Assembly (NCBI GenBank): GCA_031213475.1
Contig: JARUPZ010000007.1
Span: 7,683,586 to 7,747,585 of the forward strand
Source: Nereocystis luetkeana
Taxonomy: Eukaryota; Sar; Phaeophyceae; Laminariales; Laminariaceae
Direction of reading: 5' to 3'
Length of the DNA: 64,000 bases
Below the pieces are notes generated by a model that saw only the letters and a program-made list of their open reading frames with translations, ran no database searches and had not been told where the DNA came from. This document shows, one piece after another, positions 2,186 to 62,200 of this stretch. Positions within the stretch are counted from its first letter, which is position 1, and every line of letters begins with the position of its first letter. The position numbers and the translations under genes are program-made.

Positions 2186-3017
2186 GTACCCTGGTACATA
2201 ATACCACGTACCGGTATAATTCACTGCATGCAGTCTAAGAGATCGCTGTTGTTTGTGAGATTCTTCATTTTATTTGCTGTTCCCTCTTTTATGGTGGCTT
2301 CAGTCTCCAGTGCGGAATCAACAACAACTATCATATCTGACGGCATTTTTCTCGCAGAATCCTCCACGTTTTGGCCGTACATCACCAGCGAGCTACGTAT
2401 CCCCTCGCTACCTTACCGGCAAGCAACCAAACGGTGTTTGTAAGCACCACCGCAGCGACTACCGCTTGTAGTACCGGTTCACGCTCAACCCGCTGAGCCT
2501 GCGACAACTACAAAAGGCCGCGAGAGGCAGTGTGGACAATTATTATTGTTTCATGGGAGTTGCCATGCATACGCAGATAGATACTGCCCTGTAGAGTCTG
2601 ATTGATGTGTTCGTCCAATGCACCTACCTATGGATGCTCCAAAACACATACCATGTGTACTTCAGTTGTTCGCATCGCGACCCTCCGCGACCTTTTTTTT
2701 GCTTTCGCCCCCTGCACGGCAGCCGCATGCATGCGTGACGCTGCAAGCAAAATGGTCATTATTTTTATTCCCCCAGCCCAACCCGAGCTTGTACGTAAGC
2801 TGTAGTGCCGAGAGTGTTACTGAGTACAGGTACATGGTACCTGGTAAGCTGTTTGAAAATGTCCCCGCCGACGATATTTTCCCACGTAATATGTGCGAAT
2901 CTACAGTTAATACTACTCTGTGTTGTTGTCCTGCAATTCTCGGAGCTCGTCCATTTTCAGCTTCGTTTTGCGGATATCGAGTAGTTTTTCCCAGTTTTTG
3001 GTTTTACGATCCAGCAT
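2186..3017. other. Intergenic stretch without recognisable gene
   Basis: Only short chance open frames are present. The left end has a degenerate cluster of the TACC(A/T)GGTA motif (about 2185-2215) and one clean TACCTGGTA near 2839. Nothing else is supported. Confidence 0.6.
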
Positions 3018-3171
3018 CTCTCTGCGTATGTGTGTGTTCTTCACATTAAAACCGTTCTTTCTACCCGTCGACATCCGGCACAACCAGTGTCCGTGCGATT
3101 CTTCAATCCTAGAAGAGATACAAGTTCTGTGTGGTCACAAAGCTACGCCACAGAGATACTACGTTGCCACG

Positions 3172-3194
3172 TACCAGGTACCAGGTACCTGGTA
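3172..3194. repeat. Three tandem TA-CCWGG insertions
   Basis: The site reads TA followed by CCAGGTA, CCAGGTA and CCTGGTA. The paralogous site at 43411-43420 reads ACGTATGCAG with no insert, so exactly 21 bases (three heptamers) have been gained at a TA, each leaving a new TA. Confidence 0.85.
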
Positions 3195-3231
3195 TGCAGT
3201 AAGCACAGCAGTGGGCAATGCAATGCCATGT

Positions 3232-4524: not shown

Positions 4525-5568
4525 CGACAGGCACGACATACACATTCTATGAAATAGAGACACGAAAGGAAACAATCAAAGAGAAAACAAAAACAGAGTA
4601 AACAAATCGAAAGAGAAGAAGAAAAAAAATGAAAGCAAAGACTAGAAGAAACAATCTGTCGTGCCCCCCCCCCGCAGGCGAGGTGGCCAACATTTATTTG
4701 GAAAAGAACGAGCGAGAAAAAAAAGAAAAAATAACAAAAACACCAGTGCTTGTGAACAGAGTGAGATAAAGAACCAAGGAAAAAATATATATACCAGGTA
4801 CATAACAAAGAAGGGAAAATAACAGGCAGACCAAAGCCCAAAGCACCCTCCAGGTGGCGGCAGCAGTTTGTGGTACGAGTAGTACAGCCAGGTTCCCCCT
4901 GCTAATCCGCCTGGTACCTTGCTACCCAGACTACCGCGTCTCTGCCCTGCGTTCGTCAACTATGCCCAGCCCCTTGGCGTCAGACAATACGAAACGAGCA
5001 GAGCAGGTTCGTCATCCAACCACGCCACACGACTCCTTCAGTACTGTTTATCGATCAGAAAATGAAGAGAAATAAATAAAATGAAAAATCACGGAGAATC
5101 AGCGCAAGAAAGAAAGAAACAAGAGAAAAAGAGAAGGCAAGGGAAGACCACGTTCGAACCAGCTGCACCGGTTGATGGCACGAGTAGTAAGGTCATGTTC
5201 TACTTCCTAGTCGGCCTGGTGCCTCGCTACCCTGTCTGCCATCTCCTTCCTACTTTCGTCTACCGCAGTTTCCCTTCTACTCCTCTTGTTCCCCCCCCTC
5301 TCCGCATTCCCTTGGTCGGGCTTTCTGCCACTTCTTCTGTTGCCCCCTCCACCCCCATTCCCTTGGACACCATCCACGGCGGATGCGCGGCGCTGCCTGC
5401 TCATCTCAGCCTCAGCCTCGTGCCACCTCACCATGAACCGTTCGGCTGCTTCAAGGATCCCCCGGTATGTACGTCTGCACATAGATACGTATTATTACAT
5501 GGTGGTACCAGTCTGTCCCTAAATATAAGGGAGTTTCACTTGTAGCATGAGGTTCTAAGTGAATACTT

Positions 5569-5602: not shown

Positions 5603-5657
<55 letters not shown>

Positions 5658-5743: not shown

Positions 5744-6005
5744 GCTTGCCATCCGGCAATGTGTAGGGTTGTTCTAATAAACGACTAACCGAAAGTGAAG
5801 AACTCTCCAGACCAAAAGCGCGGCAGTATCCTGCGACAAATCAGAACTGATGTGACGCTCATGAAGACTACTACAACCAACATCTCTCCATCTCGTCCAC
5901 CAAAAAACGACCACTTGTTGGTAACAATAATAGCTAAATATATACCAGGTAGGTTTTTGCGTGCACCGTAGGTCCTACCCTGGTATTTAATATGGCCCCC
6001 CGTAA
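5569..6005 (+). mobile_element. MITE-A copy split by SINE insertion
   Basis: The left part (5569-5606, ACGGGGGGCCAATGTTAAT) and right part (about 5929-6005, ending GGCCCCCCGTAA) are the two halves of the TA-flanked palindromic MITE described at 16657. Between them lie a TAA-tailed SINE on the minus strand and its TTA microsatellite. The right half also carries two small inserts, CCAGGTA at 5945-5951 and CCCTGGTA at 5978-5985, each placed directly after a TA and absent from the other MITE-A copies. Confidence 0.7.
5605..5876 (-). mobile_element. SINE-like retroposon (variant 2) with long TTA-repeat tail
   Basis: The body 5744-5876 is the reverse complement of 43557-43697. Its 3' end (minus strand) is CACATTGCCGGATGGCAAGC followed by a TAA repeat of about 140 bases (5605-5743). 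The microsatellite is therefore the retroposon tail and not an independent repeat. Confidence 0.65.
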
Positions 6006-6839: not shown

Positions 6840-7584
6840 TACCAGGACCTGGTACGTACGTAATGGGTCGAGGGTTCGATTCCAGGCATATAATATGATA
6901 ACTTTTGGTCCTTTTCTCTCCATTTTTTCGCTGTTGTTTCTGTCGTGGAACACGGAAAAGTATTCTGTCCGCCAGTGATACCCCCCGCATACTTCAACTT
7001 GAAGATGGTAGGCCCTTTTTTAGAGGATATATATGAGGCTACTAAAAAACTTATAACAACACTACGATAAAACAAATGCATTATTATTCATGTTGTAAAA
7101 TAATGACTTGAAAAAATACCAGATTTCCTTCCTGGCTGGGAGCTTATTATGGAGAATTTTTCCGAGCATCCGGGGGGGGGGGTGATACCGATCCATCCCC
7201 GTTTTTTTCATCCCCTCGCTTCCCATATAATATACCTGGTATCATGTTGAAACATTGAAGCAAAACTTCAAGAGTTCCTCATGCATGCGCAAGGCATGCA
7301 CTCATTCACAGCATCAAGCCACCTTATACTTCGAGGTTTCCGAAAGTACCTTATGTTTAGAAGCAGACTGGCCTGGTATATGATACCAGGTACGCCTAGC
7401 ACGCACGCGGGCATATACTCACAGTTCAGTGCTTTTTAGCAGCAGTCGTGCAAGCATGCGGCAGAATGTTTAATATGTATATACCGATACAATGGAACGT
7501 GAGAAGAAACGTGACGGAAAAGCATGACGATCACAGCACACATACATATCGGCCACATGGCGCACTCGGGCTGCCGCGGGTAAG
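6840..7584. other. Intergenic stretch, no gene recognised
   Basis: It contains three TACCAGGTA-type motifs (6840, 7232, 7380) and a lone GGGTTCGATTCC near 6870 that resembles a tRNA T-arm but has no partner A box at normal distance. No other feature is supported. Confidence 0.5.
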
Positions 7585-8441: not shown

Positions 8442-8629
8442 GCTGTCTGTGCTCCTTCCTTCTCCTTTTTTTATTGTTCATCACACCCCGCTGGTAGTTG
8501 CTGTAGTACACCAGGTTACAGCAAAAACAGCACAGTACTGCTCAGAACAACAGTAGTAGATATACCAGGTGATCCGATAGATGTATCGGTACCTGGTATC
8601 ACTCTGTCCCTCCCCGCTTAATATAAGGA

Positions 8630-8741: not shown

Positions 8742-10850
8742 ACTAATTAAATGAGTCATCACGGTTCTTTCATTTCGGAACAAACAGAGTGTGACATTTA
8801 TTTTGTCTTCTTACTTACGTGGCCGGGCGTACGTTTCCGTCGGCCGATCGATCGTGTCACCGCTTCGTGCGCCTTCCCCCTACACATATGGCTCCCTGCG
8901 ACCCTCCTCGCAGCCGCCCCAGCCGGTCGATCCGGCGACACTTCCTTCTCCCGAGGTCTACCTATCCTGCCTGTCTGTGTGTGCCGTTACGTCGATATCC
9001 GGTACGAGGTAGTATATCGGGTACTACTCTCCGGTACGGACGGCGGTGTAATAGAATGAGATAGGGCTGGCGTTGAAAAATAATTCGGACCTGTTCGGGT
9101 TTTTTTATTTTTTTTATTTTATTTTATTCCGGCCCTCTTCGTCCGCGATGTTCGTGTTCTCGAATTCCTTCCGGGCTGGTGTGCGGTATAATATCCACCA
9201 CATCATCGGGTACAACGATTTTTGTTATCTATCTATGGTTAATTGTATCCGACTTATGTGCTATATATATCCTTGCAGCAGCTGCTCCTCCAGTTGTTCG
9301 AACCTTCTCCCAGGAGCCTATGAATGAATACGGCCCTGCGGTCCTGCGTCGCTTTCCAGTTTGTATCTGACCTTTCCTTGGAAGATGACTCCCCCCCCCT
9401 CTGGCCTTGTTCGCCACAAATGGAAATATGTCCGGCCCTGGTTGGTAAGAACAGTGCAGTTAAGGCCCGCTATTAAGAAACGTCGGTTCGGCGTTTAGGC
9501 GCAATGCATTATTTGTAGGCACATACTCCAACCGCATTTCTTAAACAGACGTTTCTTATTTGTTGGGGCTTTTGTCAACCGCTCCATCTCTTCAACGGGA
9601 CATACATTATGTTTAGGGAGATTTTGGCGACAGGGGACTGGATATTATGAAATTATCGGGTTGATTGAAAAAAAAAACGAAGGAAAACAGGAACCTCCGC
9701 ACGGTGGGATGAACCCATGGTGTGTTGGGTGTTGGATGTTGTACAAGGTGCTATAGTCCGCGTTTCAGATTTTATTCGGCGTTCCCAAATAGAACTTTGT
9801 TCCTTATCTCCTGTGGGCCTCGATCGCGGCTGTTTCTTAGGCTGCAATATCCTATTGCTAAGATCAAGGTCGGGACACTTTGTATCCCTGGACAGGTTTG
9901 CCTACTCGTTGGTACTCACGTGTGTTGTTTGCGTAGAGACAGAAGAAGAGCAGCTTCATTCCTTTCGTGCACGCGAAGACTGAGAGCCAAGCTCGTGGCT
10001 CGCTGGGAAACCCCCTGATTTTCTATCTAAGATACGCCTCCCGAGTACTACAAATACTAACTCAATACAACCCAGGTAACTACCGGGCTTACAGCCTCAT
10101 TCAAGGCAGTATCATAACACTATCTTGTCGGCCAGTGTGAGCTACATTTTTAACGCTGCATTTCTTATTCCTCGTGAAGGGCCAAACCTCAGTTTCTTAC
10201 CGATATATTTCTTAATAGCGGGCCTTAAACTATACGTACGAATCACGAAAAGGCGGCGCGAAAAACCGCCAGGAAGGACGAAGAACAGCAACAGCAGTAG
10301 TAGAGTTTACCAGACGCGTTCTACGATAGAGGTATTACTAGCACATTTCCGCGGACCGTTTTCTGAATGACGGGGTTCCTTAACCTAAAATCGTGTTTCG
10401 AAACAAATCATTCTTGTGTACATGGTCCATGGGATCACTCATCGGGATGAAATTTGATTTTCGCTGAAGTCAGTTTTCGGGTGAGGTCCGGAGCCCCTTT
10501 AGTGAGGAGCCTCAGAAAGATCAGGGTGAGCCTCTATCGTAGAAGGCCTCCACCACTTATTCGAGATTTGGTGTGATCGGCCTCGGGTCAGGCTTAGGGT
10601 TGCTCTGATTAGGGTTGGGGTTAGTTCTATTATATACCAGGGTAGTCGTCTCGAACACAGCGTGTGTCAACCCTTTTCTCGAATATAGGTGGTAACCAAC
10701 CCTCAAGGCGAACGGGGACAGCCGGCGGGAGCGTAGCAAGAACTATCGGGGAGGTACAGTAGTAGCCAGGCGAGCAAGTCCGAGCCGTCTTCCGTAGGCT
10801 AGGTACTGATTGCGGCCACGCGAGGAACACACCAGGTCGACGATGGCCCA
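8742..10850. other. Intergenic stretch without recognised gene
   Basis: Short open frames on both strands have no recognisable domain. Low-copy A/T-rich DNA with a T-rich tract near 9100-9125. I see no RNA gene and no clear transposon. Confidence 0.5.
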
Positions 10851-15575: not shown

Positions 15576-16300
15576 GGCAATACGAGTGGTTCTTTCGGGC
15601 TGCCTGCGCTCCCTGTTGGCCTACCAGGTACTATTTAGTCAGCCCGAACGAGTGAAAAGCGTGGCATAACGATCCAGTCAGGCTTCATTCCGCCTCTGGC
15701 TATTTGCTTGCCCTGTTTTCTTTCCGTAGCAGGCCACAACCAGTCATGACCACCGGCAATTCGACCTTGCGTACGTAGCGACATTCTTGCTTATTTTTTC
15801 CCCCGCGGGGGACACTAAGGGGATTACTAGGTATATTGATTGCCAGCTTTCAACGGTAATGGATCGAGCGCTCTATTAAAGACGCTTTTGACTGGGGAGC
15901 AAACGTTTTTTTTCTTCGAGGGGGGGGGGGGGGGGGGGTCCCGTCGATTGCCTTTCCTTGCTTTCCAGGATTACTTGCGGGTTTCGCTACCTTTGTCGCA
16001 TCCGCATACATACCTCGATATTTTGTTTTGTTGTCTCAGTGTTTTCGTCTTCACAGCCCGGTTGCCTAGGGTGTTACACCTTGTCTACGCATGGGAAACA
16101 TGCATACTACGTAGATGAGGGTTTCGAGCCCCCTTTCTCCCTCGATGTGCCCTTTCGCTCGGTGTTCGCCTAGGATTATTCTTTTCATTCGGATGCGTTT
16201 TTCCCCATTCGAAGAGGCGTTTTAGTCTCGCGACGTACGGGGTGTGGAGTAGGGTCTACTGCCTTATTCCTTCCTAATGGCCTACCAGGTATACCAGGTA
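15576..16300. other. Intergenic stretch
   Basis: It contains a G run at 15921-15938 and three TACCAGGTA motifs (15622, 16283, 16291). No gene is seen. Confidence 0.5.
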
Positions 16301-16656: not shown

Positions 16657-16765
16657 TTACGGGGGACCATAGTTAATAATAGGACAAAATATTGTTAGTA
16701 AAAATGGTTAAATATGTAGGTTTTTATGTATACCATAAGTCCTATTAACTATGGTCCCCCGTAAT
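16657..16765. mobile_element. MITE-A copy
   Basis: The 109-bp palindromic element is bounded by TA on both sides. Terminal inverted repeats are TTACGGGGGACCATAGTTAA and its complement. TA duplication and size suggest a Tc1/mariner-type MITE; no transposase source is in the window. Confidence 0.85.
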
Positions 16766-17256
16766 ACTACATTTTTTCATTAGGTGCTTCGCATCTTCGA
16801 TTGGTTTTCTCTCTCTGGTTTCTGGGTCAAGATGAATTGTAATATTTCCTTGCATCGCTGCAGTATCTCTTCTAGCGAGGTATGCTTAGCTGACCCTGTT
16901 TTTGTTGCGTAATAATAGATACATTTCATCATCGTGAGACAGAGAGGGGAGTACTGCCTACTGACAACAACAGACGACCTTCGCACCCCACTGCTACACG
17001 ATGATCGATCTGGGACAACACCGCGAAATAACGAATACCATTATGAATCGTGTTCGAAGCACCAGGTATACCTGGTAGGTTACAAAAGAGGAATAACGTC
17101 GCCCACCTCAAGTGGAGGAAAAGCGCATACCTGGTAGTGTGGACTTTTCTGGATTCCTCGACCACGAAACGATGGAGCTGCTTCGCATCCAGCCCTACTT
17201 GCAGTCAGAGGTCCGAGTTGGGGGTAGGGGGGAGGGTATCGGAAGGGGGAGAACAT

Positions 17257-17908: not shown

Positions 17909-19074
17909 TACCTGGACAGTATTGCTGCGCAGACATATATATTGATTGCTCTCCCCGAGGGCTTTTCCCGTCCCCTTTGTGCAGGGCGAGCCCCCTCCGG
18001 AAACCAGATTGTTTGAGTTTGGATTGAGTCTGTTGACGTTTTGTCCTGAACCGCCTTAAACTTGTTGCACGCTCCCTATTTACTACCTTGGTACAGCAGT
18101 AGTAGTTTTTTTTCTCTAGTGAGGGGTCGTGCAGGGGGCTCTCATCGACGTTCCAAATACATCTTTTTTTCGCGTACGTGGGGCAACTAAAGTAAGCAGA
18201 TACGGCAGGTAGTATTTCAGGAACACCCGAGCTTCGCAGATACGGTAGGTAGGTAGTGAATGACTCCAGATGAAGCCTGTGTGCTCACTGCACTCATGCA
18301 ATTTGTTAGTGCTGCCGCACGCTCCGTCCTCCTGTGAGCGGGACGATGAACGAGCTCACCAGGTAGTATGCTTCGTACATTTAATCGGCAAGTATCGCCC
18401 CCCCCCTCCTCGGATGTACTGCCACCCCTTTCTGCAGTTAGTTACACGCGTGATCGGTAGCTGATTCGTGCCAGTAGAGGACGGTGCAGTGGGAAAGGGG
18501 GCTATGGCGTGAAGACCCCGGAAAGGCCGAGACACGCAATACTCCTGAATGTTCCGCACCTCTATCCCTTTACCTGGTATCTGTCACCCATTGCCATCAC
18601 GCATGATGCCACCGAAAACCATCGAATGACACCAAGTACCGCTCTCACAGAGTGCTGGCAGAGATGGTTAGGGTGCGATGAACTCTCGTTCCAGTCTTGG
18701 GAGCTACATGGGATGTCTATACTCAAGCGTGTAATTTGTCGACACTTTGCTCTACGTCGAACATCGGATGTCGTTGGGGCTTACACGCTTTGAAACGGTA
18801 GATAAACAACGGGAAAACCGGCGACAACAGGCCCCTTTACCAGTTACATGGGAATCATATTGAACAACATAAGAGCGCATGCCAAGAATAGCTGAGAGTA
18901 GAGTCGGTGCGGTGTTGTCGTGTGGGGGTGTGCAATGGTGTGTGGACTGGCACGGTGACGGTGGGAGAGCGAAGGAAGACAATCGCGAGGGCTGATACGT
19001 AGAGGGAGGAAGTAATCGCCGAAATGGTGGCTCAAAAATCGTATCAAAAATCGTACAACGCAAGGTACAGGACT
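17909..19074. other. Intergenic stretch
   Basis: No gene or clear repeat beyond single TACCTGGTA motifs (near 18575) is recognised. Confidence 0.5.
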
Positions 19075-19205: not shown

Positions 19206-22200
19206 GCGATTCAAAACACTTAAACTCGTATCTGAGGAATCTCATCTAGCTTCAAAAATCACACAGGAAGTTTACTTCAAATGTTACACGTACGTATTTA
19301 CATGTACACGTAGCCGTTATTTTTACCCGGGAGGGAAAACCTACAGTAAGGGTAAACTCTTAGGACAATATTTGAACGGTGCGAGGTTTGTAGGACGCAA
19401 AAATAGCGAATTCCTGTTTCATGAACCCCCAGTTGACACTGCTGGGTGGAGAAGGAATGCATAAAATAGCGGAATATATCTACTTGCTGTAGTAGTGCAG
19501 CGCCAACGAATGCGTTTTGCCGAGCTGTTGCCTACCTGGCGGGTGTTAACATTTATTCAAGGTTTCATGGAGGCCTGGATGTTTCTGAGAATTTTCGGAC
19601 TTGATAGTAGGGAAGCGGCCGAAAACAGGTCCGTTGGAACTATTGATGACGTACTATTTACTGCAGGATATACTTCTTGCTGTGCTGCCGTTCGTTGCAT
19701 GAAATACAGTAGTATTGTATCATGTGCACCACTCACTCGTGTCGTTAACAACCCTTTTACCCTTGCACTGGAAGTCGGAAAGTAGGATGACCACCCTCCC
19801 TACCCCAGCAGCTATGCAGCTCGCGTTGCCTCGTGTGGTCGGAGCTGTGCAGGTTGTTGTTGTTGTAGTTCCCCCGGTGTGCAGCTTACTTTCGGCAAGT
19901 AGGACCCCCACCGGGTCGCACGACAGTCCGAGCCACAAACGCGCCAGCGAGATACAACAACTGGGGCAGAGCACTTCGAAACTTGCCACACTCATCATGC
20001 TCACGCAACAATTTACTTATCCACAGTTACTTCTCGTGCGACGCGGTGGAAAGGAACCGAGAACTTTCCAAGCACTCACAGTAGGATTCGTGCGTACCTG
20101 GTATCAAAAGGCTCGCATCAAAGGTGACACATGTTCGTACACAGTAGTATTAATAGTAGTAGTGAAGACCTGGGCCAACGATAATATGCGTTGCTCTGCT
20201 GTTCCCTACCTATTGATAGTAGGTGTCTATATTGAATGTTGGATGGATGAGGCATGGGTGGGTCATTCTGGCATGTACACAAAAGCAAAGAACAAAGATA
20301 CATATATGCGTTGCTCTGCTCTTCCCCGTGTACTGCTGCACTACGTATGTATGATGAGGGTTGAAAGTTTGCTCGGCGAGGACGTCACCGTTTTTTACCG
20401 CGTTCACTGCCGGAGGCGGGTGTTTCGCAACCCGTACGAGAGCCCCCGGAAGGGGCCGTGGAGCTTACAGCAACGCGATACATGATTGATTACAGTACGT
20501 AGTACATACCTGGTACCAGGTAGTAGGCCGTGTGGGTTGCAAGAGAAGAAACCGACAGATCGCGCGTGCGGGCCGACAACGCTATACGGCGGCTCAAGGC
20601 CGAAGAAAAAGGAGCCTCCCAAATATAATACCCAAAAAAACCGCCGTTCTGCTCGTGAACAGTCATAATGTAGATGTTCATAATAAATACCAGGTATATA
20701 TTAATGTGGATTTTTCCGAGTATAACATACCATGGTAGTGGTGTAGCCTTACTTAGCTAGCCAGAGTGTCGCGAACTCACGAGATCGCACCCACCCGTCA
20801 TCACCAGTGACACAACCACCCCCACACCACCATCACATCACGCGGTGCTTCCGAAAATAAAACAGGTACATAGGCATAGGCGCCTAAAAATCGGTTACCA
20901 CGTTTTTTGTTTTTTTTTCTGCCCCGGGGAGCGAAGAGGAAACCCCTGTCCACACTTATTTCTCAAGCTTTCGAACCCGGTTCGTTTCTTCCACCTTGGT
21001 CGGGCCTGTCTGTGACCGTCATTAAAGTGTGGTTTGCTCCGAGGATGTAGGCACCAGAGTCTAGATATTATCTCTCCCGACTCAGGTAGTGTGGGATTTG
21101 TTTTACCACGTACTGCACCCAAAACTAACGTGATGGCCATCGCTCGCTGTGAAAAAAGGGCAAAATAAAGTACAATTGTTACTCACTGGCGTCAACAAAG
21201 AAACCCCAAGTCTGACCGAGTAAATATGTTGCTGGCGATCGAGGTACAGTACTATAAGGTATGAATATAAAATCTTGCTCCTCAGCAATCCGGTACTTAC
21301 CAAAGCAATATTGCTTTTCATTTACCAAGGTTGTGTCGGCGCTTTAATCGGAGAGATTCGAGCCGCGCGCGCACCATACGGGGGAAAAAAACTGCCTACA
21401 GCCGCCTGTCGGTGAAATAATGCCATCATCGTGGGCGACTACAGTAACAAGAGGAGCTCGACGATATTGTCAATCAACTGCACTCAAGAAGAAATGTGGC
21501 TAGCTCGCACGTGGTCGGTGTGGTTCACAGGAGGTCGGCGAGCCACAACGACTCGCAACACGCCGCCCGGGATCTACGTATGGATACACAAGACAAGACA
21601 AGACCAGACAAGACAAGACAAGAACCACGTATAAATAGGACCAGAGACGTTTTGTGGCACACCCCATCACATGCCTCCGCCTTCTTCGGCAAAACCTTGC
21701 CCCCGAAAGCACCATACGGGTCACCCGTCTCGAGTACCTGGCCCACCCGTCTCTGCCTCCACGACACAGGAGAGCCTATAATCAAATAATGAAAGCGCGA
21801 GTAGCGTTACCGTCGCTCCACGGCCACCCGCCGCGACGGCTAAGGCAGGGGACGACGTTCACCCCCACCCCCCCCTCTGCCTCCTCGTCAACCCTTTCAG
21901 AACTCCAGTCCCGTTTTGGGGACACACCGGTGAAATTCCAAGTAGTTTGTTCCAAATTGTCCCCAAAACGAGACGGCAGTCCTAAAAGGGCTAATTAAAC
22001 ATCCGTACCAGGTGTGTACCCAATGCATCACGGCCACCAACACTATTACTTCCTCCCTACCTCCGTGCCAGCTTTGTTTCGCTCCTACTCCCACCGAAGT
22101 ACCAACCAAGTTGGAAATGGGCACAACGGCTTGACACCACAAATATGAAAAGCCTCAGCGACGACGAGCCACGTAGTCCATGTGCAAGCTCGCTACGGAA

Positions 22201-28400: not shown

Positions 28401-31400
28401 CCAGAATATTGAGTACTGGTACGCCCCAGTGCCTTACAGCAGCGCGTCAGTACTACCGGTAACTCCCCAGTATGAGCACCCCAGAGTGCACACCGCAGTG
28501 CCCTATATATCTAGAGTACGTTATGTCCAGAATATTGAGTAACCGTGCGACCGAGCACCTCACAGCAGTACGTCATGCCCAGACGTACGGTAACTGGGAA
28601 TACTCGTACGGTTGTATTCTGGCGCCGATCTTCCTCCATGTCATTCCAATACCCCCCCCCCCCCCCCCCCCTCCCCGCTTCGTCTCGAAAAGGATGCGTG
28701 GTCAATGGTCAAACGACTGAGGCAAGCAACAAATGACTACGCCCCCCCCCCCCCCCCCCGCCTCACGTAAAACACGGAAACACACGTCAAGAGCGCCCAA
28801 ATGTTGGAGGTGTCTACATCTCAGTAGGAGTAGGAGCCGTGCTCCGTCTCTCGAAACGGATGCGTTTCATGGTTAAACGACCAAAGGCGGGCAACAACAA
28901 TGAGTTCGCCACCCCAGTCTCCAAAGGGATGCGTGGTCAATGGCCAAATTGGCCACGGCAAGCAACAAATGAGTACCCTCCTCCTCCTCCTCCTCCTCCT
29001 CCTCCTCCGCCCCACGCTCCCCTCCTTCTCCCCCCGTCTCCTCACATGGCGTCAAGCGTGGACATCGTGAAAGTGCACATCAAGCCGTCACTGTTGAAAA
29101 ACGCTCCGCCGCCATCACCACCACTGTCGCCTTCGCACCCCAGCGTGTACTCGATCGACACGGGGCCTTCGTTGCGGCGAGTCTTGGTACCGATGTTGTC
29201 GCAGCTCACGTTGAGACTCTGGACGTCCGAGATCATCCCTAGCGTGGCGTTGGCGGGGAAAGGGCAGCGCAGAGCAGGGGGCGGCACGAGGACGGGAGGA
29301 GCGGCGTTTGCAATAGTTTGCCTCCCTTGTTCTTTCTGGCTTTGTTTTTTTCTTTATTTTGGTGTTGATATTGGTTCGGCTTCCCCGGCAGTACTGAAAG
29401 AGTGGCGGCGAGTTTTCACCAATTGTCCTCATTCGTTCGGTACGTATTCAAGTTATTACGGGGGGCCATAGTTAACAGGACCAAATATTGTTAGTAAAAA
29501 TGGTTAAACATATAGGTTTTTATGTGTACCATAGGTCCTGTTAACTATGGCCCCCCGTAACAGGTACTACTGCTGTCAATGGTTTCGGTTCAACAGACCA
29601 GAGCTAGCCACCACCCTCATCTCAAAACGCAAGGACGGTGTGGATTTGACAATTAATACGGGGGACCGTGGTACATAGGACCAACAAGTCTTGCTAGTAA
29701 AAACAAGGAATTGTATAGGTTTTTGTGTATACCGTAGGTCCTATTTGCTATGGTCCCCCGTAATAGTGTACAAAACTGTCCTTACAAGAGTAAAAAAACG
29801 AGGGGTCTGAAGCTGCGGTCTCCAATTTGAACATTAAAAAAAAAAAAAAACACTCAAAACACAAAACCAGGTACGAGTACGAGTACCAGGTACCAGGTAG
29901 TAGTTAAGGAACAGAGCGGTACCCGGTATGACAGCAAAACAACAAGGATACCAACATCATACGTAGACTCATCAGACCTTTCGCGCCTCCGACAGACAGA
30001 CCATCGATTTCCACTCGATGATCTGAACCTTTCAAGGCAAACCCACTCCCGATTTTGCATGATCTACCTCAACTCTTTTAGAACCGCAGTCCCGTTTTGG
30101 GGGCAAACCATTCAAATTTCAAGTACTTTGTCCCCAAAACGGGACTGCGGTCCTAAAATCCCTTCTACTGCTGTGGCACTCAAGTCCTGTTTTGGGGACA
30201 AACTACATACTGTATCATTTGAGAGTTTGTCCTCATAACGGGCCCGCAGTCCGGGGTGGGAGCCTTATGCTCCGCACGATTTTAGCACATACTTCCTGGG
30301 GGGGGGGGGGTTGGACCCAAACTATACAGATCCTGCACAACCTATACAGCAGTAGATTTTCTATCTGTACAGTAGATAGATAGATCATGATCTATCTGTC
30401 TGTCAGAGATGTGACACCTTCAGAACTCCACGCCCCCTTGAAGCCAATAAGCCACAAAAACAACAAGTAGGCCAACTAAAATTCGCAAATGAAGCCAGTA
30501 AAACCAGAGCCAATTATATCCATGGCGTCAACGGGTGAATGAAATCAAAACCGTACGCCAAATCAATAGGTCTCATATTGGGCCTACACCGCAAAACAAC
30601 GCAAATTGATGGGAAAAAAAAAAAACGGTACCTGGTACGTAGGACGTGGGAGCCCTTTGGCCGGTGAAAGAAACAGGCCAACGACGGAGAAAGGGTCAAA
30701 GCCATTAGGCCAACGAAGGCATACATATCGAGGCCAGAAGGCAATAGTCAATGAAAACAATAGGCCCCCAAAAGCCCAAAAGCCTCCAAATCAAAAGGGA
30801 AGCTCCCTCACCGTCCACGCCGAGAAGCACGCGGCGGTTGTTGACGACATCGGCGGGGCTGAAGGAACGGTAAGGGGTGATCGGCATGGTCAGCCGCAGG
30901 TCTTCCGACACTAACTCGGCCCAGGCGTCCTCGTCCACGGAGCCTTCCGCGCGAAGGTCGAACACCTGATTTGAAGAGAGAAACCGAGCGGAAGAGATAT
31001 CGAGATATTTGAGATATTGAGATAGTGAGATACTTGTATAATAGTAAATATATTGAGACAAAACGCTATCTTGAGATACTGAGCCCACGGAACCTTCCGC
31101 GCAAAGGTGGCACACTTATTTCTGAGAAAGCTAAACCATGCACGAGATTATTGAGATACTTTTGAGGTAATGATATACTTTGAGAAACTTGAGAGAATGA
31201 ATTCAGATATCGAGATGCTGAGATACTGAGAACGTTCACAGAAATTTAGACACATTGAGAATGGAATGGAGAGATAAAAAGAACGCTCCGCGCGAAGGTC
31301 GAACACCTGTGTCTTTGAGAGAGAAATCTGAGAGAGAAATCAAGCACGAGTCCACGGATTTGGGAATCGAGAGATGACAGACGCAGAAGAGTCCGAGAGA

Positions 31401-35196: not shown

Positions 35197-35397
35197 GGGG
35201 AGTTGAACAAAAAGTAAACATAGCGAAGAAGGTGGAATAAAGAAACATGGTTCACTCCATTTGCAAGCACTTCGTGCCCAAAACGGGTTCGCAGTTCGAA
35301 AGGCACCACGCCCATACCTGGTACAAAATAATATACCCTGATATTGTACTTCAAAACCAATCAACACACACCCACTACACATAATTGTAATTAGTTT

Positions 35398-37730: not shown

Positions 37731-37831
37731 ATGTTATTTACGCAGTGTGTGTTCGCTCCTTCTGCGCGCTCTCCACGGTACGGTAAATATACGGCAATGA
37801 CAAAACATGTACCAGGTACCTGGTATCGTAT

Positions 37832-39166: not shown

Positions 39167-39690
39167 CATGACATGTGATATCATACAGTCGTACGTAGTA
39201 CCAGGTAACTATTATTATATACCAGGAATATATAGGCTGTAGGTCGTAACGTGCATGTTCGTTTTTCTTATCTCGCTCGCTAATGTCGATGTACGAGTAT
39301 TAATAGTGGCAACCCGTAACCTTCTGAACTCCCTCGAGTGGTCCAATTTGTCAAGCAAGCCAGAGTAAGCAAAAGCAAGTCAATCAGGGAGCATCAGCAG
39401 GGTCGACAAGGTATTTCTTCCACTTCAGAGTTATAGGAGCCTGTCCTGCGACCACGGACTGCTGTATTGTATTGTGGCGATGAGTTAATGTGAGAACAAC
39501 AACAAACAACAAGAGGCCGACAAAAAAAAACAGAAGAAACACCGAACACAACAGAACCGAGCATCACATTTCATAAAACAAGCCAGCAACAGAAAGTGAC
39601 AGCCGCACATGTCACACCAAACGAGCCTCTCTCGCTGCCTGTCGCCATCCGGGCTCGGGACGAGAGGCGCAAACGCCATTCCTATACTAG
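39167..39690. other. Intergenic stretch with an AAC-tailed repeat end
   Basis: TACCAGGTA at 39202, and the 3' end of the AAC-tailed family at 39440-39510 (GACCACGGACT...GAGTTAATGTGAG). Confidence 0.5.
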
Positions 39691-39794: not shown

Positions 39795-41310
39795 TAGTAC
39801 ATACGAGTACAAAATACCAGGTACCAGTACGTTTAATAGGATAACACGACACGTGCGCGATATTATTTGCACTTTTATACGATCGGAACAAGGAGTCAAG
39901 TGTAGTACCTGTAGTTTCACACGCAATACCTGGTACCAGTATACCAGTAAAGATATACAGGTAAAAGAACAACATCGGCCACAATGTTCCTCGACGTCCA
40001 AGGATAATTTGCATGTATGGACAGCTCCCCTGGCAGCTCGCAGCTGAACGGCTCGACACTCAACACACGAGCTGTGAGTGTAAGTACGTACGAATCTGTC
40101 GTGGAAATGGGGCATCTACACCAGTACATCAAAACTGACCGCCCATGATTGCTACCACAGGTACAATATTATACATACTGCACAATCTCAATCTCAAGAC
40201 TGCTGCTGCAGAATGCAGACACCTTGGTGATGATACCAAAATCATACACAGCACATGTCGCGAAACTCAAAAGAGTTTTCACAGCGGAAAGAGAAAGCGG
40301 CCGAGGCGAAGGCGAAGGCGGCACGATAAAAAAAAAGAGCAGCCAAAGCGGGTCGAATGAGCACCTAGCCACTAGCCACAACCATCAAGCACGCACGGGA
40401 TCCCATGGCCGATCGACCGCGTACACAGCCAGAGGAGATTTCACCCAACTTTGTACGCACGCTGATCGCAGCAGGGCTGGGGGGACTCGCTCCTCGAGAA
40501 GGAAACAAACACGAAGTCAAGGAAGGGCGGACTATTGTTGCTCACTGCCTCCTCACTTCTCACGACAAACGAGGGGATAAGCGTTGCATGAAGCGACTCC
40601 CCCGCCTCGAGCAAGCAGAAGACTAGGTCGGCGTCGACCGCGTCTCGGGGTCGCGGCGCTGGTGATCACGCGAGCCTCGCGACTTCGCTTTATCTCCCAC
40701 TCCCTACCAATCGCAGCATCGAATTAACGACACCTCAAATTATATGGCACAAGGCATCCCTTGGAGAGCAACGCGCACACACCTTGAAGTCTCCGTGTGT
40801 CTCCTCAGAGTAGGACAAGAACCAACCGGGAAGGCTCGTAGCCCTCTATCGCCGGCAATGACACCACCGTGGATGTGTGTGTACCTCTCGTAGCAGCAGC
40901 AGTCACTCACGACGGGAACGGGCGGGACTACCAGTACGCAGACAAGAATTCAAGTAGTTGATGTTTGGGGGTAAAGGAGGGCAGCAGGCGCGTGCGGGCA
41001 CAGCGAACTGGCGAACAGCTACGGGCCAAAAGGCGACGTGGCACCAGAAAAAATCGGGAATAGGTTTTATATGATAATGCGTTATTATATCGGGATCGGG
41101 GCTCCTCGTTAGCAGCGAGGGTTGGCATTTTTTTTTAAAGCAACGCATTCTTATTGGTCAAATACCCGATAAAGAGGCCCAGCGAGATAAATTGAATTTA
41201 AATTTCGACTTTTGATTGCATCGTCCATTGATTGGCAAGAAGCCAAAATTCACGTTCGAATCGCGCTCACTGGACTGTCACACTGCTACTGCTGTCGCGT
41301 TTCGTGTCCG
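39795..41310. other. Intergenic stretch
   Basis: TACCAGGTA/TACCTGGTA at 39815 and 39930. Open frames such as 40149-40580 have no domain. Confidence 0.4.
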
Positions 41311-42166: not shown

Positions 42167-42309
42167 GTGGACAGTTACGTGCCGGTTCGGGATACTGGCA
42201 TATTGTGTACCAGGTATTATGTATTACCTGGTACCTGGTACCGGATGTATTATGTGATTACTGACATCTGGGTGCTAGGGATGACGCACGATGTCACCTA
42301 CCGCTGCTT

Positions 42310-43245: not shown

Positions 43246-43556
43246 AACTGCTTGTGTGTGTTCTTCACATTAAACCGTTCTTTCTACCCGTCGGCATCCA
43301 GCACAACCAGTGTCCGTGCCGATTCTTCAATCCTAGAAGAACATCTTCAATCCTAGAAGAGATACAAGTTCTGTGGTCACAAAGCTACGCCACAGAGATA
43401 CTACGTTGCCACGTATGCAGTAAGCAAACTGCAGTGAGCAATGCAATGCCATGTCACAGGCACGACATACACATTCTATGAAATATAGAAACGAAAGGAA
43501 ACAATCAAAGAGAAAACAAAAACATACCAGGTAGTAGACAAATCGAAAGAGAAGAA

Positions 43557-47900: not shown

Positions 47901-48253
47901 TAAGTTTCAGTTCGGCGTCCTTGGTAACGACGAAATTGACTGCCGCGCATTTGCTAGCCAGCTCAAAGCGCATACCTGGTAGACGTTAGCCGCTCGTCAA
48001 CGAACTGATGAGTATACACAGACTTACTGCGCAACGACCCCTTGACAGCTAGTCCTACTCCGTACAGCCCTTGCCTGGTGGCTGTTTTTTCCTGTCCTGA
48101 ACAGAAAACACGATACCCTGCCGCACGGAACGTCGTGCTGCCGGACCTCCGAGTTTCCTGCAGGCCAGTGAAGTCACAGCCGAGTTGCCGTCCCTTCGCC
48201 AGTACACGAGATGATGGCGACTCTATTGAGAACCAATCGAGAGAGTGAGGCAC
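44914..48253 (-). pseudogene. LINE open frame: APE endonuclease and reverse transcriptase, four breaks
   Basis: The endonuclease shows LQETRRS (about 48165), LMDANARTG (about 47830) and SDHN (about 47530). The reverse transcriptase shows [51 protein letters not shown] and [10 protein letters not shown] (near 46000); the C-terminus has [10 protein letters not shown] and a glycine/arginine-rich end. Breaks: a CCAGGTA insertion at 47975-47981, a TGA at 47047-47049 where CGA is likely, one extra A in an A run near 46530, and a one-base shift near 46383. [14 protein letters not shown] also lacks about four residues of the usual [22 protein letters not shown]1-like clade is a guess. Confidence 0.85.
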
Positions 48254-51457: not shown

Positions 51458-52193
51458 TTGAGTTTCGTCCCTGCAAGTTGCCTTTAGCCCGTGGGTCGTA
51501 CGAGGAATCTAGGTGGGCTGGTGTGGTCGCAAAGGTGAATGTCTTGAGTTGCCACTGACGTTGAACATGGGCTAACGTGCAGGATTTGCACTGCTTACGG
51601 TGCTTTCCGTGGTTGATTTCGTCTTAATTCTTAACAAACGTCTCGGCGTTCTCGATGCGTTGCAATTTGTTTTCTTGGAAAGGGCCGAGGGCGGCGTAAA
51701 ATTGTGCGCTGTGTGTGTTGTCTAAAATGCAGTGAACTTCGTCATTACACCATCGCACAACTCTCCATGTGCTTAACATAGAAGCACATTATACGAGGTA
51801 CCACTTCCTCCGTACAAGTTGCGGTGAGTATCTCATATGTGATCGTTCTGTATCGTCAGAGATACTTTCTAAAGCAGCTAGCTGCACTCGTACGTACCTG
51901 GTATAATACTTTTCTTCTAGTTTATCGTTGCCTATATTTTGTGACGCCACCCCCACAACCCTTCACCAGCAACTAATATACCGGCACTGCAAGCCTACCC
52001 GGTAACCCAACGTGAAAAACCGCTTTGCAATCGGTTATATCTCGAATATAGATAGGTGCTATTGCTTGAAACCGACTTGTAACGTAAAAAAAAGAGAAAT
52101 TTTCTGGCCCTCTACCAGTGCAGGTAAAGGATCCCTCTCCGTAAAAGAAATTGGCAGGATGATAAGAAATTTGAGAGTGGTCATACTGAAGCC
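51458..52193. other. Intergenic stretch
   Basis: TACCTGGTA near 51895; nothing else recognised. Confidence 0.5.
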
Positions 52194-54715: not shown

Positions 54716-55880
54716 ATGTACGTATGTATGTACTGTTGCTGCTGTGTTGTGCCGTGATCATATTCACGTATCTGGTATCTATTTATTGATGCTTCTAGTG
54801 AGCATGATGTGTGCCCTGCGCACCATTCACATTGTTTCCATTAAAACTTTATGTGTCCGCGTTCCGCTTTACGGTATACGATGGCGATGATGACTGGCAT
54901 GCCAATAAATGGCGACGTGAGGATTCGATCAATCTGATGAAAATAAATAAAAACAACACAAGCAACAGGCACAACTTACTAGATGTTGCTGGTCGTTTTG
55001 TGTGGTGTAGTGGTGTGATGGTATCACGCACCTGTGAAGCACCAATACAATGGTGTGTCAGCGCAGTGACAGCCGCTGTAGGCTCTATAGCGCGGCAGAC
55101 AGCAGGCAGCGTTCCTCTGTTGTTGATGTTGTGAATCGAACGGGGGTTCCAAAATTGGCGAACAGGTGTTGGTTCTGTGTGACCACAAACTATTATTACG
55201 AGCTCAGCAAAGAAATATCCCCCCTACCCTCCGTAGCTATACTTGCTGTGCTGTCCGGAGTTTTTTTTTTTTTTGCATGCGCATGCTGCGCCCTCGATCG
55301 GCCCTGGAATGGGGCGAGCGACTACTTTACTACTACTGCTAATAATGCTGCTTGCTGCTGCGTGAAGCGGATGTTGGTTGGCTGGGAGGCAAGTGGGCTA
55401 TCTATGCTATACCAGGTATAACCAAACAGAGAAATCAGTAGTTCAGGGGTACACAGGGAAAAAAAGAAGAGAAAACGGACCTACACTCTCGCCACCATGT
55501 CGGAGTTGAAAACAAAGCACCGGGTCGGGATTTTCGTAGGAATTTAAATGAAACGTGATTTTTTCCCGTTTTTTTAACTTGATTCTAGTGACCCCCCCCC
55601 CCCCTTTGGTCTGGCTGTCTGGGGCTAAAAAAAAATGCGACCCGACCCGTCGACTTTTTCTTCGTGTATCCAAGGTGGATGTACCCTCGGATAAACGTGA
55701 TGATGGTGATCGTGATGAAAACATACGCATTGCATTTGTTTTCAGAGGAGGAGGTGTGCACAGCAAGCAGAATAAAGAAGGCTGATGGGGTAAACAGACC
55801 TTTCCTGGGATGCAGGTTGGGTTGTTCACCAGGACTGCCTACTGCTGTACTAAAATATGTATGTAAATGCTGCGACCTGT
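54716..55880. other. Intergenic stretch
   Basis: No gene recognised. TACCAGGTA at 55407 and a C run at 55593-55605. Confidence 0.5.
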
Positions 55881-56625: not shown

Positions 56626-57650
56626 TTTGGGGCACCACCTCTCAATCTAAAGTCACGCATGTAGCACCCCCCATCCAATACATTTACCGGTAAGTCTTTA
56701 CGTACCGATTACCAGGAACTGGATGATTAGCCCCCTGCCTGAAGAGTCGTAAATATCGTAAATACCAGGCAAAAGTATTAGGTATGATAGATGATCACAC
56801 GGCTATAATACGACGTCAGACAAAGAGACGATGGCAATCGTAATATCATCAACTACGCATATATCGCTAACACCCCCATTTCGTCATCATCCGGTCGTAT
56901 GCTTTTTGTATCATCGTACATGCGTAATCACACGAAACGCGACGCGTCGCCTTAATCCAGACCTCAACCAAAATATATACGGCATGGATACACACGCGCC
57001 TTGCCGCTTGAAAACAGGGCGCCAGCCCACCAGGTCATCACGCACGCTCACGCAACAACAAAGACATCAAGCAGCGCCCACGCGATTTATTGGCTGACAA
57101 TGGCGGGTACACGAGCACACACTTTTAGTGTGCGCCATAACATCTACCAGGTAAAACCTAGCGTAAATAAAGTCCAAATACAACGAGCAGTCCCAGCTGG
57201 CAGCTGCCAGACAACTACTATCACTCGCTGCAGCCGTTGCATTAATAGTTAAGTTCGTCTGATGACAAAAGCAAAAAAAAAAAAAGAGAAGAGAAAGGCC
57301 TGAGGGCCGATGCTGCCATCAAAGAAGCACGACCACGACCGTACGCGCGTACTGCTGCAGCTGCTACTACTGCTGCATCATATACCCCCGGCACAGGCGG
57401 AACTCTTCTAATCTACCACACTATTCCAACAACTGCCGCCAGCACCCATAACGCCCTTAAAAATACCGCTGCCACCGTCAGATCACCACCGAGCGAAGTT
57501 GCTGCAGCCGTCCACCCCATACCTCGACTAAAATAAATGGCAAAAAAAGCAACAACCACGACAGCCACAACGAGACAAAAAAAAGGCCGCAACAACAACA
57601 ACAAGCATCGCGGGAAAAAACGAAGCAACTCAATTGAGAGGTACTAACTT
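56626..57650. other. Intergenic stretch
   Basis: TACCGGTA near 56690 and TACCAGGTA at 57147. No gene recognised. Confidence 0.5.
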
Positions 57651-58190: not shown

Positions 58191-58946
58191 CAGCCAACAC
58201 CTCGCCGCCTCTGGTACGAAACCAACGCCGGCGAGACCCCCCCCCCCTCGACAACAAATTCTAAAATCGACGAGTTGGTCTACATGAAACGCCGAGTGTC
58301 CTATTAGCACTACTACTAAAATCACGCCGGTCCGACAGTACGGTCGGAATTAATCGCAAAAAGCTACAAAAAAACAAAATAAAAAAAGAGGAAGAGAGGA
58401 GACGGAGAAGGCGAGGCAGGCATACACACCAGAGAACAAAAAAACGAAGACAAAGACGAGAACGAAAAAAGAAAGCAAAAACATCAAAAGCGCGGATTTA
58501 TAAGCGTTGTCGGGATGCCCCTCCCTTCCCCCTCCGAGTCAGTCGAGTCAAACAGCTACCAGCGACACGCTACATATTATGCACCACAGGAAAGAGGAGG
58601 TGAGGGGGGACGAGCAGCAGGAACAGGAACGGGAGCAGCAAGGGGGGGGGGGGCAGTACCGGCGGGGGAACCGAGCGACGCGTTGGGCTCTCACGTAAAT
58701 AACTAGCACACGAGCTCGCACGCACAACCGTGATGTAAAATCCCCGTACCCGCTCTACTTGTTATGGAGGCGTTATTGCCTCGAGAAGAACAAAACGGCA
58801 GATAGAAAGAAAACTCCTGGCCAAGCGCGTGCGTGACTCCAGACACACACCAAGCACATCATCGCAAAGGGTCCCTACTGATAGCCCTCTCCAGCCTCCT
58901 CTCGCTCGACCCCGAACCCGTTTTTCTCCTCGTACTGACGCGAGAG

Positions 58947-58980
<34 letters not shown>

Positions 58981-59201
58981 CCTCCGGCCAACAAAAAAAA
59001 GTAAAAATACACACGGCAGAGGAAAAATCTCCGCACACAGGTTTTTTCCCGTTGGATACGATTGCATTTTCGTTGAAAAGACAAAAGACACCAGAATAAA
59101 GGAAACAAGTACGTAGAGGAGAACGAAAGATAAGATAAGAGAAGGAAAGCTAAAACACGACCCCGCCGCACCCTACCCCCACCCAACCCGGCGCAGTTCC
59201 G
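58191..59201. other. Region downstream of the SWI3 gene
   Basis: C tract at 58949-58977 and low-complexity A-rich DNA at 58370-58500. The polyadenylation region of the SWI3 gene should lie below 59202, but no signal is certain. Confidence 0.4.
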
Positions 59202-62200
59202 TCACTCGGAGAGCATGGACCTGGCCTGATCCAAGAGAAGCTCTGCCCTGTCGTGCTCAAGCGACTGTCGCTCCGTTTCAAGAACCTGGGAGTCGACGGC
59301 GGTCGAGATCGTCGATTCATCGTGCAGGCGGCGGCGGGGGTAGATGGGTGGGTGCGTGGGTGGGTGTGGAGGGAGGCGGGCTGACTGAGACGAGGGTTGA
59401 GAGATGGGGAGCGATATTTTCGTTCTCTTTCGGTTACCTGGTATAGACAGAAGTGCCAGCAGGCTGATACCATATCGCTCTTCTTCATAAATATCTGGTG
59501 TAGTTCATACGAGTAATACCAACAACAGGCGGCGATACTGGGCTACTCGTCTACCAGGTAGTCTATACTTGGAATAAAATGAAAACGTGCAGGTACTTTC
59601 ACTTTTTGACTTTTTTGAACACACAGCACCAAACGAAATCCGGGACAGAGCGAGGGAGGGAGAGAGGGAGGGAGGCGGGAGCCCCGCCACTCAGCACCCC
59701 GGGATCTAAGCTAGGAGAACAGAGAGGGCAAGGACTAGAGGTTTACAGCCGAGAGCTAACTTGACGAGCAAAAAAACGGAAACAAACACAAAAAACAAAA
59801 CAAAGGCGCCGCCGTTCTTCCCATCACGACCCGCCGCTCTTGCAACGGAATTTCCCACAGAAACAGGAAAACGTGTATCACACTACCAACTGTCGCGCAG
59901 ACATACACCGACACAGACGGGGGCATACGGCGACCAGCATGAATGGAGAGTAACAATGGGTTACCGCCTTGGGTCTTCAGAGGAGGAAACGCGTGAACAC
60001 AAAGGACGATTACGCCATCAGCCACACGGAAGCAGCCCGGGCTGTTGGGGTATACGTATAGGGGATGCGCCCGAAGCGCAACATGGTGTACCCAGGGAGA
60101 CTTATGACACGCGCGCAGCATGATGTACTGCTGCACGGTTTTCCTACAATAGGCGCATGGCTCATATCGCAATACTCGTCGCTTTTTTTTTGCCGCTTTA
60201 CATCCTCATTTATCGCACTCGTCGTTTTGTTTGCCGTCGTACAGGGGCCCCTAAAGGGTTACGGTAACCTCAGGGGGCGAAACACACTAACCTGCTCTAG
60301 CTCATCAAAGCAGTGCAGCTTCGCCTCCAACCGCTGTAACCTGCAAGCACGAACAGAGGCGGTAACGGACAGATAATTAGATGCCGATGCAGCGCGGCAT
60401 GCGAAAAGACAAGAACACGTTGGTGGAGAAAAGGCCCACGAACAGCAAAGCACTCGTAATGGTAACGTTTAGCGGGCACGAAATGTCCGGAAACGTGTAA
60501 TTCTATTTGTGGAAAGGCGTTACGCCATAACCTACATCGCAATCGTGGACCTTTTTTGTCACGTTGATCGTCATTGCCTGTATGATACGGGTAATCGCGA
60601 TATCAATCCTTCTCGTTTTCTTAAGTTGTGGTTGTCAGGATTCCGTTGCAAAGTCACGGTTGGGGGAAAAAAATCACGTTTCGCGGAGTAGGTCACGAAA
60701 TATCACGGCAAAAGAGCCCACGAATCGTGAAAAAAAAAATGGATAATCAAGAAGGATTGATGGTTCGATTGATACCGGTATTAGCTACAAAAACGTGACA
60801 AAAGCGCACGAAAGCGCCCCGGTTTCAATCTTAATTTCTCGTCGAGAACGATCTCAACCAGGCGCACCCCCCCGCTCACGTGAAAAAAATACAACGGGCG
60901 AGCAAGAAAAACTGGATAAACCTCGCGCTGCGCTGCGAGGGTATTCACCGGGGTGGCTCAAGCAAACGTCCCAAGGTGCCGCAAGCTTTTTCTCCTCACC
61001 TAGCCTCTAGCAGATCAGACATGAGCGCCTCTGTTCGCCGCTCTTCCAGCTCCGCCAGCCCGCGGGCCTGCAGTCCCGCCAGGGACAGCACCGCCGCCCT
61101 GGCCGCGCCGACCAACCCCACCCCGGCGCCGGAGCCGCCTCGGTCCCCGCGCATCCCAGAAGAAGATGAAGAACAAGAAGACCCGGCCTCTTCCGAAGCC
61201 CCTCGCGATCTCCTTCCGTTGGGTGTGGCAACGGCGGCGGCGGCAGCGGTAGCGGGCGCACCGGGACCGTTAACACATGCGGTTGCTTCTTGCCGACCTC
61301 CTACCGCTGCAGTCTGGCCTCTGATATCTCGCATCTCGACGTCATTGTCGTCGTTACCACCCCCACCGACGCTACCAATACCGCTGCTAGCCCGCGACCG
61401 CGAAGAATCTCGTCCAGTGGTGGCTCTCCCTCCGCCCACCCGAGCGGCTCGAGCGGCCCGAGCGGTGGCGGCGGCGGCCGCCCTGCGAGACACCTCATCC
61501 GCCGTGGCTGCGGCAGCGGACATCGCCGCCTCAAGCACATCGGGGTGGACGTTCGAAACGAGCGCCGACGCGAGCATCAGCGCGGGTGCCGCCTCGCCGA
61601 GGTGAGCTGGTCGCTTAGTACGGTGACCGAGGCCTTGGTCAATACTGTCTTTGATGCTGCTGCTGCTGCTACTTCTGCTTCTGCTGCTACTCTTGGTGTT
61701 GTGGTTGCTGCTGTTGCTGCTGTTTTTGCTGCTGGTGCTGTTGGCCATGGTCGTGGCGGTGGCAGTAGCGGCAGCGGTGGCGGTAGTGCATCCGCCGCTA
61801 CCGTTACCGTTGCCACTATAACTGCCGCTGCCACCGCCACCGTCAACCCGAACCCCCTCCGTACCACCCCCCGCGGACAATCCGGCAGCCGGAGGCGGTG
61901 ATACGCTAGTCGCAGGCGCTGATCCGTCAGCCGGGGGCGCCGACGTCGCCGCCGGAGGCTTCCCAGACAAGGGGAAGGAGGAGGAGGGACCTTCCTCGCA
62001 CGATGATGGCACAGCGGTAGGAGTTTCTGCCGCGGCGTTTCCGTTGCCCGCTTTGATACCAATAGCCGTGCCGGAACCAGCAGCCACGACGGCCGCCGCC
62101 GCGGCCGCCGGGCTCGCGTCCATCGCGGGCGTCGCGGTCGGCGAAGCTCCAGTTGCGGAAGCCGCTTCCGCTGCTAGCGCCTCTGTCGCCTCTGCCGCCG

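Follow-up and report, generated by a model that had tools for sequence, protein, structure and literature searches.

The window analysed here is a 64,000-nucleotide stretch of the Nereocystis luetkeana genome, located on contig C7 of a 465-Mb assembly, and the feature under study is a dispersed nine-mer, TACCWGGTA (W, A or T). A preliminary description of the window had reported about 40 copies, where random sequence would give about 0.5, and had read them as 5-base inserts left at TA by an excised transposon. There are exactly 40 copies, 21 with A and 19 with T at the W position, which is 160 times the mean of 0.25 (maximum 2) found in 100 dinucleotide-preserving shuffles. These sites are, in our view, probably heritable footprints left by the excision of one or more TA-targeting cut-and-paste DNA transposons.

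Most copies in the window stand alone. TACCTGGTA footprints lie at 2838..2846, 7233..7241, 8590..8598, 17069..17077, 17128..17136, 18571..18579, 20095..20103, 30629..30637, 34622..34630, 35315..35323, 39927..39935, 47973..47981, 51895..51903 and 59435..59443, and TACCAGGTA footprints at 4792..4800, 5943..5951, 7384..7392, 15622..15630, 20688..20696, 34488..34496, 39199..39207, 39815..39823, 42208..42216, 43525..43533, 55410..55418, 57145..57153 and 59552..59560, with two adjacent TACCAGGTA footprints at 16283..16300. The positions given earlier agree to within 1 to 2 bases, the first copy beginning at 2838 rather than 2839. The remaining copies form chains: three heptamers at 3172..3194, and two heptamers each at 20507..20522 (different W: T, A), 29884..29899 (A, A), 37810..37825 (different W: A, T) and 42225..42240 (T, T), the last four having been placed near 20507, 29883, 37808 and 42225. 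Three 6-base variants accompany these sites, namely TACCAGGGTA at 2187..2196 on the minus strand and at 10635..10644 on the plus strand, and TACCCTGGTA at 5976..5985; strand was assigned to the TACCAGGGTA sites only.

The excess extends to the whole assembly, which holds 182,395 TACCWGGTA (0.39 per kb) against 1,744 occurrences of the reversed pattern, so that the genome-wide count, proposed earlier as a check, exceeds this control about 105-fold. Composition was examined in 346 kb of non-N sequence, comprising the window and 39 other stretches (25 further stretches and 14 transposase loci, designated here by L numbers). Retained in this count are L001-L004, L007 and the 14 transposase loci; left out are L005, L006 and L008 (overlapping L004/L007), the viral stretches L037-L045, L046-L085 (picked for the motif) and L092 (rbcL). 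Under an order-2 Markov model 3.1 TA-CCWGG-TA are expected in this sample and 142 are observed. Of the 30 classes obtained by permuting CCAGG between TAs, the runner-up is GGACC with 14, a string also found in a miniature inverted-repeat transposable element (MITE) of the window, and the median is 1. The viral contigs show no enrichment: of the nine stretches there with the chained motif, eight have a nine-mer count of 2 and one has a count of 3.

TACCWGGTA sites are insertions at TA. When 279 kb were aligned to themselves, 41 gaps of seven bases appeared between good flanks, and six of these are exact rotations of TACCWGG. For a direct search for empty sites, the flanks of the 115 maximal sites in the 279 kb were joined and searched against the sample, and 23 sites proved to have a spanning paralogue. 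Nine of the 23 have one or more paralogues that match the joined flanks with no gap close to the site and only one TA there, bearing out the gain of 5 bases with TA duplication that had been claimed; one of these nine, L021:1844, is weak, as it sits in an AT repeat. The empty, ungapped paralogue shows another dinucleotide than TA at four sites, and at ten no ungapped empty alignment was obtained. For example, L024:2187, AACAC[TACCTGG]TACGTG, has seven empty sites among 10 spanning paralogues, and 16 of 29 spanning paralogues of L024:8898 have TA. A further site with an empty TA paralogue, L013:6350, lies in a repeat, and the window site at 5943, in sequence related to a 110-bp MITE, is empty with TA in 11 of 12 spanning paralogues. 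The variant at 5976 is likewise inserted relative to its paralogues, and three paralogues of the site at 43525 lack the insert, their position not being TA. The triple chain at 3172 amounts to 21 bases, against ACGTTGCCACGTATGCAG in two paralogues (window 43366-43456 and L007) that are empty with a single TA. Indeed, one and the same TA has been struck in different copies of a repeat with different products, A at L003:1501 and T at L024:2187; in a second repeat family, the TA that bears three heptamers at window 3172 bears the 4-base form TACTGGTA at L028:1414.

Insertion follows an AT-rich target preference that reaches 7 bp to either side of TA. The preference was tabulated from 112 flanks of 56 unchained sites, a broad filter having dropped 70 of 126, and both sides were pooled, which makes the table symmetric by construction. 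Outward from TA, T is enriched at +1 (0.51, against 0.29 at all TAs), +3 (0.48 against 0.27) and +6 (0.49 against 0.26), A at +2 (0.41 against 0.26), and A/T at +4 and +5. At +7, W reaches 0.90 against 0.53 at all TAs (binomial P of about 4e-17, from rounded frequencies). A second TA at +6/+7 is present on the left only at nine of the 56 sites, on the right only at seven, on both sides at seven and on neither at 33, so that each side displays the preference by itself. A target score was then derived from the canonical sites in 315 kb, with a narrower chain filter that kept 105 of 136 sites; the class of single-substitution sites, which through its N positions takes in canonical sites, was set aside. 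Its mean is 0.73 for canonical sites (leave-one-out) and -0.94 for all TAs; for inserts of other lengths it is 0.39 (CCGG, 13 sites), 0.37 (CCAG/CTGG, 25 sites) and 0.93 (CCAGGG/CCCTGG, eight sites), all small sets. We also considered TACWGTA as a footprint of the same element. It is over-represented (93 against 38), but neither TACWGTA (-1.00) nor TACSGTA (S, C or G; -1.01) shows the target preference, and it was therefore dropped.

The length variants carry further information. In the 346 kb, the related 4-base sites pointed out earlier are over-represented as described, CCGG (TACCGGTA) at 16 against 5.0 and CCAG/CTGG (TACCAGTA) at 32 against 10.3, and so are 6-base forms, CCAGGG/CCCTGG at 10 against 0.9 and CCATGG at 3 against 0.3. 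There is thus a short insert with a duplicated target, accompanied by slightly shorter or longer inserts at sites of this kind, as in excision footprints. The 6-base form has a polarity: genome-wide counts are 11,422 for TACCAGGGTA (control 409) and 1,578 for TACCTGGGTA, its mirror (control 362), an excess ratio of 9:1. The TACCAGGGTA count is slightly inflated by a tandem array, in which seven copies from 1305185 stand at an exact spacing of 528 bases (G000:C1:1304145-1308362), one 6-base footprint per 528 bases. On the A strand, then, TA is followed by two largely invariant C and the A, after which come one, two or three G. A second cut at varying positions within a tip 5'-CCAGGG would produce this pattern, with overhangs CCAG, CCAGG and CCAGGG each annealing to its own kind; a tip 5'-CCTGG would place the variation beside TA. 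The polarity thus favours a single putative tip, 5'-CCAGGG. One-sided retention of four to six tip bases yields the same strings as annealing, and the counts do not separate the two. The centre is strongly biased as well, with W over S at 182,395:10,882 genome-wide, or 17:1 (S control 1,899).

A simple excision scheme would account for these features. A transposon with predicted ends TACCAGGG...CCCTGGTA, i.e., with tips 5'-CCAGG(G), would insert at TA and duplicate it. Upon excision, which would have to occur in the germline, one strand, the one linked to the target by its 3' end, would be cut at the tip, and its complement about 5 bases (sometimes 4 or 6) inside; this stagger is taken from the footprint lengths. 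The cuts would leave a 3' overhang CCAGG on both flanks, and the overhangs could anneal through CC/GG on each side around a central A:A mismatch. End joining would then ligate them, with the mismatch resolved to A or T, to give TA-CCWGG-TA. Each such footprint would provide two new TAs, each with another TA seven bases off. As a TA at that distance matches the target preference, hot sites would be struck again and heptamer chains would grow.

Several points weigh against this scheme, and they begin with the parent transposon, which was not found by any search made here. A search for a TA-duplicating transposon with CCAGG ends and a DDE transposase had been proposed; the scars were recovered, a carrier was found neither in 346 kb nor among 40 of 601 candidate ends, and no transposase could be assigned. 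Scanning for terminal inverted repeats (TIRs) gave one weak match only in 279 kb (13/20), and no element bounded by TIRs with CCAGG tips in 346 kb. The 346 kb contain 731 pairs of TACCWGG/CCWGGTA ends no more than 8 kb apart, and inverted repeats are about as frequent among them as in mismatched controls. Relaxing the ends (3,503 pairs) brought a slight excess at 10 and 11 of 18 matches, 76 against 56 and 34 against 21; the best pairs in this excess belong to the 110-bp MITE. Half sites, TACCWGG without a following TA, number 120 in 279 kb and 180 in all genome sequence sampled, and no tip family appears among the 180. In 24 pairs of half sites, 10 or more of the following 12 bases agree; the left flanks are alike in 13 (ordinary repeats) and unlike in 11, most of which we read as shifted repeats, decayed chains or chance. 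Two leads have two copies each: at window 31800 (-) and 34135 (-), TACCTGG runs into an identical ten-base string, TGTGCAGTTG, while the left flanks differ, possibly a two-copy tip or chance, and the other lies at window 38042 (-) and 53192 (+). A scan for nested insertions returned only the MITE and other repeats among the 71 events listed, the window's own not being among these. The candidate end pattern TANNNNATACCAGGGV, which excludes T as the seventh base, occurs 601 times genome-wide, and no family emerged from 40 hand-picked among 100 listed, a sample in which a family forming a small share would be missed; the single recurring pair among the 40 is a duplication that takes in the flank. 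An apparent CCAGGGCA extension of the tip is more readily explained as TACCAGGGTA whose TA has decayed.

Transposase profiles were no more productive. DDE_3 (PF13358) matches none of 30 candidates at E 0.001, and Transposase_1 (PF01359) none of three, its control having matched nowhere either. DDE_1 (PF03184), the pogo profile, has 28 matches, and none of the 14 loci examined was seen to be bounded by CCAGG tips. A pogo-like family was considered as the parent and rejected, its tips being TA plus CAGTACCGGCCCGCTAGTAAG inverted repeats, not CCAGGG (L035, L086-L090). This family (L086:1437-3624, also L035, L087, L088, L089 and L090) combines a DDE_1 match with TA-flanked inverted repeats CAGTACCGGCCCGCTAGTAAGAAAC (tips CAGTACCGG), and five of the six copies have stop codons in the matched frame. 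It thus resembles the proposed element in being a TA-flanked DNA transposon and differs by its tip. The other DDE_1 loci among the 14 show no convincing TIR. A low-copy parent, an extinct one, or many families sharing only the first six bases would each be possible. Beyond the missing parent, Tc1/mariner elements have a stagger of two to three bases, not five, in the available parts of PMC7827188, PMC4561436 and PMC5481204. The 346-kb sample is not fully random, as 14 loci were picked for transposase matches and five for a TACCWGGTA match, and its expected values come from an order-2 model, which repeats can violate. CCAAGG (4 against 0.7) and CCCCAGG (3 against 0.3) fall outside the predictions of the scheme, as does TACAGGTA, the mirror of the 4-base variant, which is slightly over-represented at 23 against 14.4 with a score of -0.55. 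The target score alone is not specific, since AT-rich strings and the MITE-derived GGACC (0.99) score high too; finally, S-centre sites score -0.44 (11 sites), below what simple footprint decay predicts.

Other explanations must be set against the same observations, and the chains are a convenient place to start. That heptamers chain by sharing TA had been noted earlier, and the chain pattern TACCWGGTACCWGGTA recurs in 15,917 pairs genome-wide (control 2); among the 115 sites of the 279 kb, 105 are single, nine double and one triple. Chains might be the product of tandem duplication or slippage after a single original insertion at each place. The W of neighbouring heptamers agrees in 9,539 pairs, above half, and differs in 6,378 (40%), which argues that most chains are repeated insertions rather than slippage, as do the different products carried by paralogues struck at one TA. 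If independent additions give equal numbers, about 80% of pairs act as such and about 20% could be duplications. Slippage is compatible with excision footprints and can account for a minority of chains; as the explanation of chaining it is very unlikely. In mixed chains, A-then-T and T-then-A stand at 14:5 among the plus-strand rows listed. We give almost no credence to the notion that the motif is ancestral within high-copy repeats and was amplified along with them. It is true that some sites lie in repeats (window 5943; L013:6350) and that the 528-base array carries one TACCAGGGTA per unit. However, 87 of 157 spanning alignments are empty and ungapped near the site, many others being gapped rather than occupied, and site flanks are diverse, with a spanning paralogue in the sample for only 23 of the 115 sites.

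A micro-element, in which an enzyme would put TACCWGG straight into TA sites, perhaps by copying a template, and no larger transposon is needed, would be in keeping with the failure of our searches to find a carrier, with the near uniformity of the product and with the 15,917 chained pairs. It fails to predict 4- and 6-base products with a fixed A-strand polarity, or a 17:1 ratio of W to S with both A and T present; we know of no precedent for such an element, and regard it as unlikely. CCWGG is the recognition sequence of Dcm, and a palindromic nine-mer of such abundance could also be a modification site, or a motif for protein binding or regulation, created by mutation and maintained by selection. 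A selected motif is extremely unlikely given that paralogues show a seven-base gain at TA, that variants of other lengths share the target flanks, and that copies decayed by substitution are common. Both the micro-element and the selected motif explain variants and polarity less well than excision footprints do. There may also be no conventional parent, a TA-specific transposase-like enzyme or few-copy element writing the self-complementary CCAGG tip so uniformly that the seven-base scar would rank among the genome's most abundant dispersed units, and each scar seeding its own further insertions by supplying new favoured targets (TA seven bases from TA); this we find rather unlikely. The footprint interpretation given in the preliminary description thus stands with respect to the empty and occupied TA pairs, the AT-rich target, the length variants and their polarity, the 17:1 centre and the mixed W of chains, and falls short in that the transposon itself was not found.

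Scars of this type are known from Tc1/mariner elements, and it is the scale and the 5-base form that look new; among the literature matches listed, none describes a five-base, self-complementary, genome-saturating footprint. In the parts of the cited papers available, excision of Sleeping Beauty and mariner leaves 3' overhangs of 3 bases, from which end joining makes the footprints (PMC7827188). The sites described here share with Sleeping Beauty/Tc1/mariner footprints the TA duplication and a short palindromic insert with a central A/T choice (PMC7827188, PMC2874221), and the origin proposed for them, transposon tips whose 3' overhangs are end-joined, would be that of Sleeping Beauty footprints (PMC7827188). 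The Sleeping Beauty footprint was rendered TAC(A/T)GTA in the preliminary description and is printed as TAG(T/A)CTA in the accessible portion of PMC2874221; the logic is the same either way. Instead of Sleeping Beauty's three bases there are five (four to six) here, in about 182,000 copies in one genome and with the parent not seen. Mariner and Tc1 elements favour bendable, palindromic AT-rich sites, according to the section of PMC5481204 at hand, and the footprint flanks are similarly AT-rich around TA. Footprints of plant Stowaway/mariner MITEs, as far as the excerpts of PMC4561436 and PMC4423477 go, likewise keep the TA duplication with a short terminal element sequence. In contrast to the rice MITE excision products, described as complex and varied in the excerpt of PMC4561436, one sequence dominates here and a carrier MITE was not found. 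A further parallel, drawn from partial accounts, is with the internal eliminated sequences (IESs) of Paramecium, which are also TA-bounded and occupy tens of thousands of positions. Their excision is precise and takes place in the soma, whereas the scars described here persist and decay by mutation, and are hence inherited. We considered programmed DNA elimination of the IES kind and rejected it, since substitution-decayed scars are frequent and the scars are therefore old and inherited.

The extent of decay gives a rough age. One-substitution relatives number about 82 in excess, against 139 intact sites (346 kb, centre position counted once), for a crude estimate of about 0.07 substitutions per site. 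Decay by substitution also means that the scars pass from generation to generation rather than arising anew in every soma. If the mutation rate is taken as 1e-9 per site and generation, the 182,000 scars would need about one fixed excision per several hundred generations per haploid genome, a figure that is not unreasonable for an element of modest activity. If these sites are excision footprints, the genome carries about 182,000 intact scars, some 0.27% of its bases (seven times the count), a readable record of past excisions that is easily overlooked in transposon annotation. Such a record would allow excision, the choice of targets and the outcomes of end joining to be measured directly on an evolutionary time scale. 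It would suggest that excision repair can become nearly uniform when the tips are self-complementary, and would predict a transposon with a five-base stagger, possibly a useful tool.

Other repeats and genes were met in the course of this work. The 110-bp MITE is near-palindromic, bounded by TA and TTACGGGGGACC, and lies in the window at 16658-16767, 29454-29563, 31858-31967, 39688-39797 and 52504-52613. By inspection, the reversed control of the TANNNNATACCAGGGV end pattern matches this MITE; that control occurs 37,204 times genome-wide, or twice per element if both ends match. On the minus strand, window 44914-46422 matches a reverse transcriptase (RVT_1) and is probably part of an element resembling a long interspersed nuclear element (LINE); the adjoining frames, up to window 47985, have no Pfam match. 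Finally, the assembly carries a plastid rbcL, of which 80 residues have their best matches in the RuBisCO chains 7yk5 and 8bdb; both are of the red type (form ID), so that the source is probably an alga whose plastid is of the red lineage. There are 131 rbcL matches, most of equal score, on many short contigs (C62 and above); these repeated rbcL contigs are plastid sequence left many times over in the assembly.

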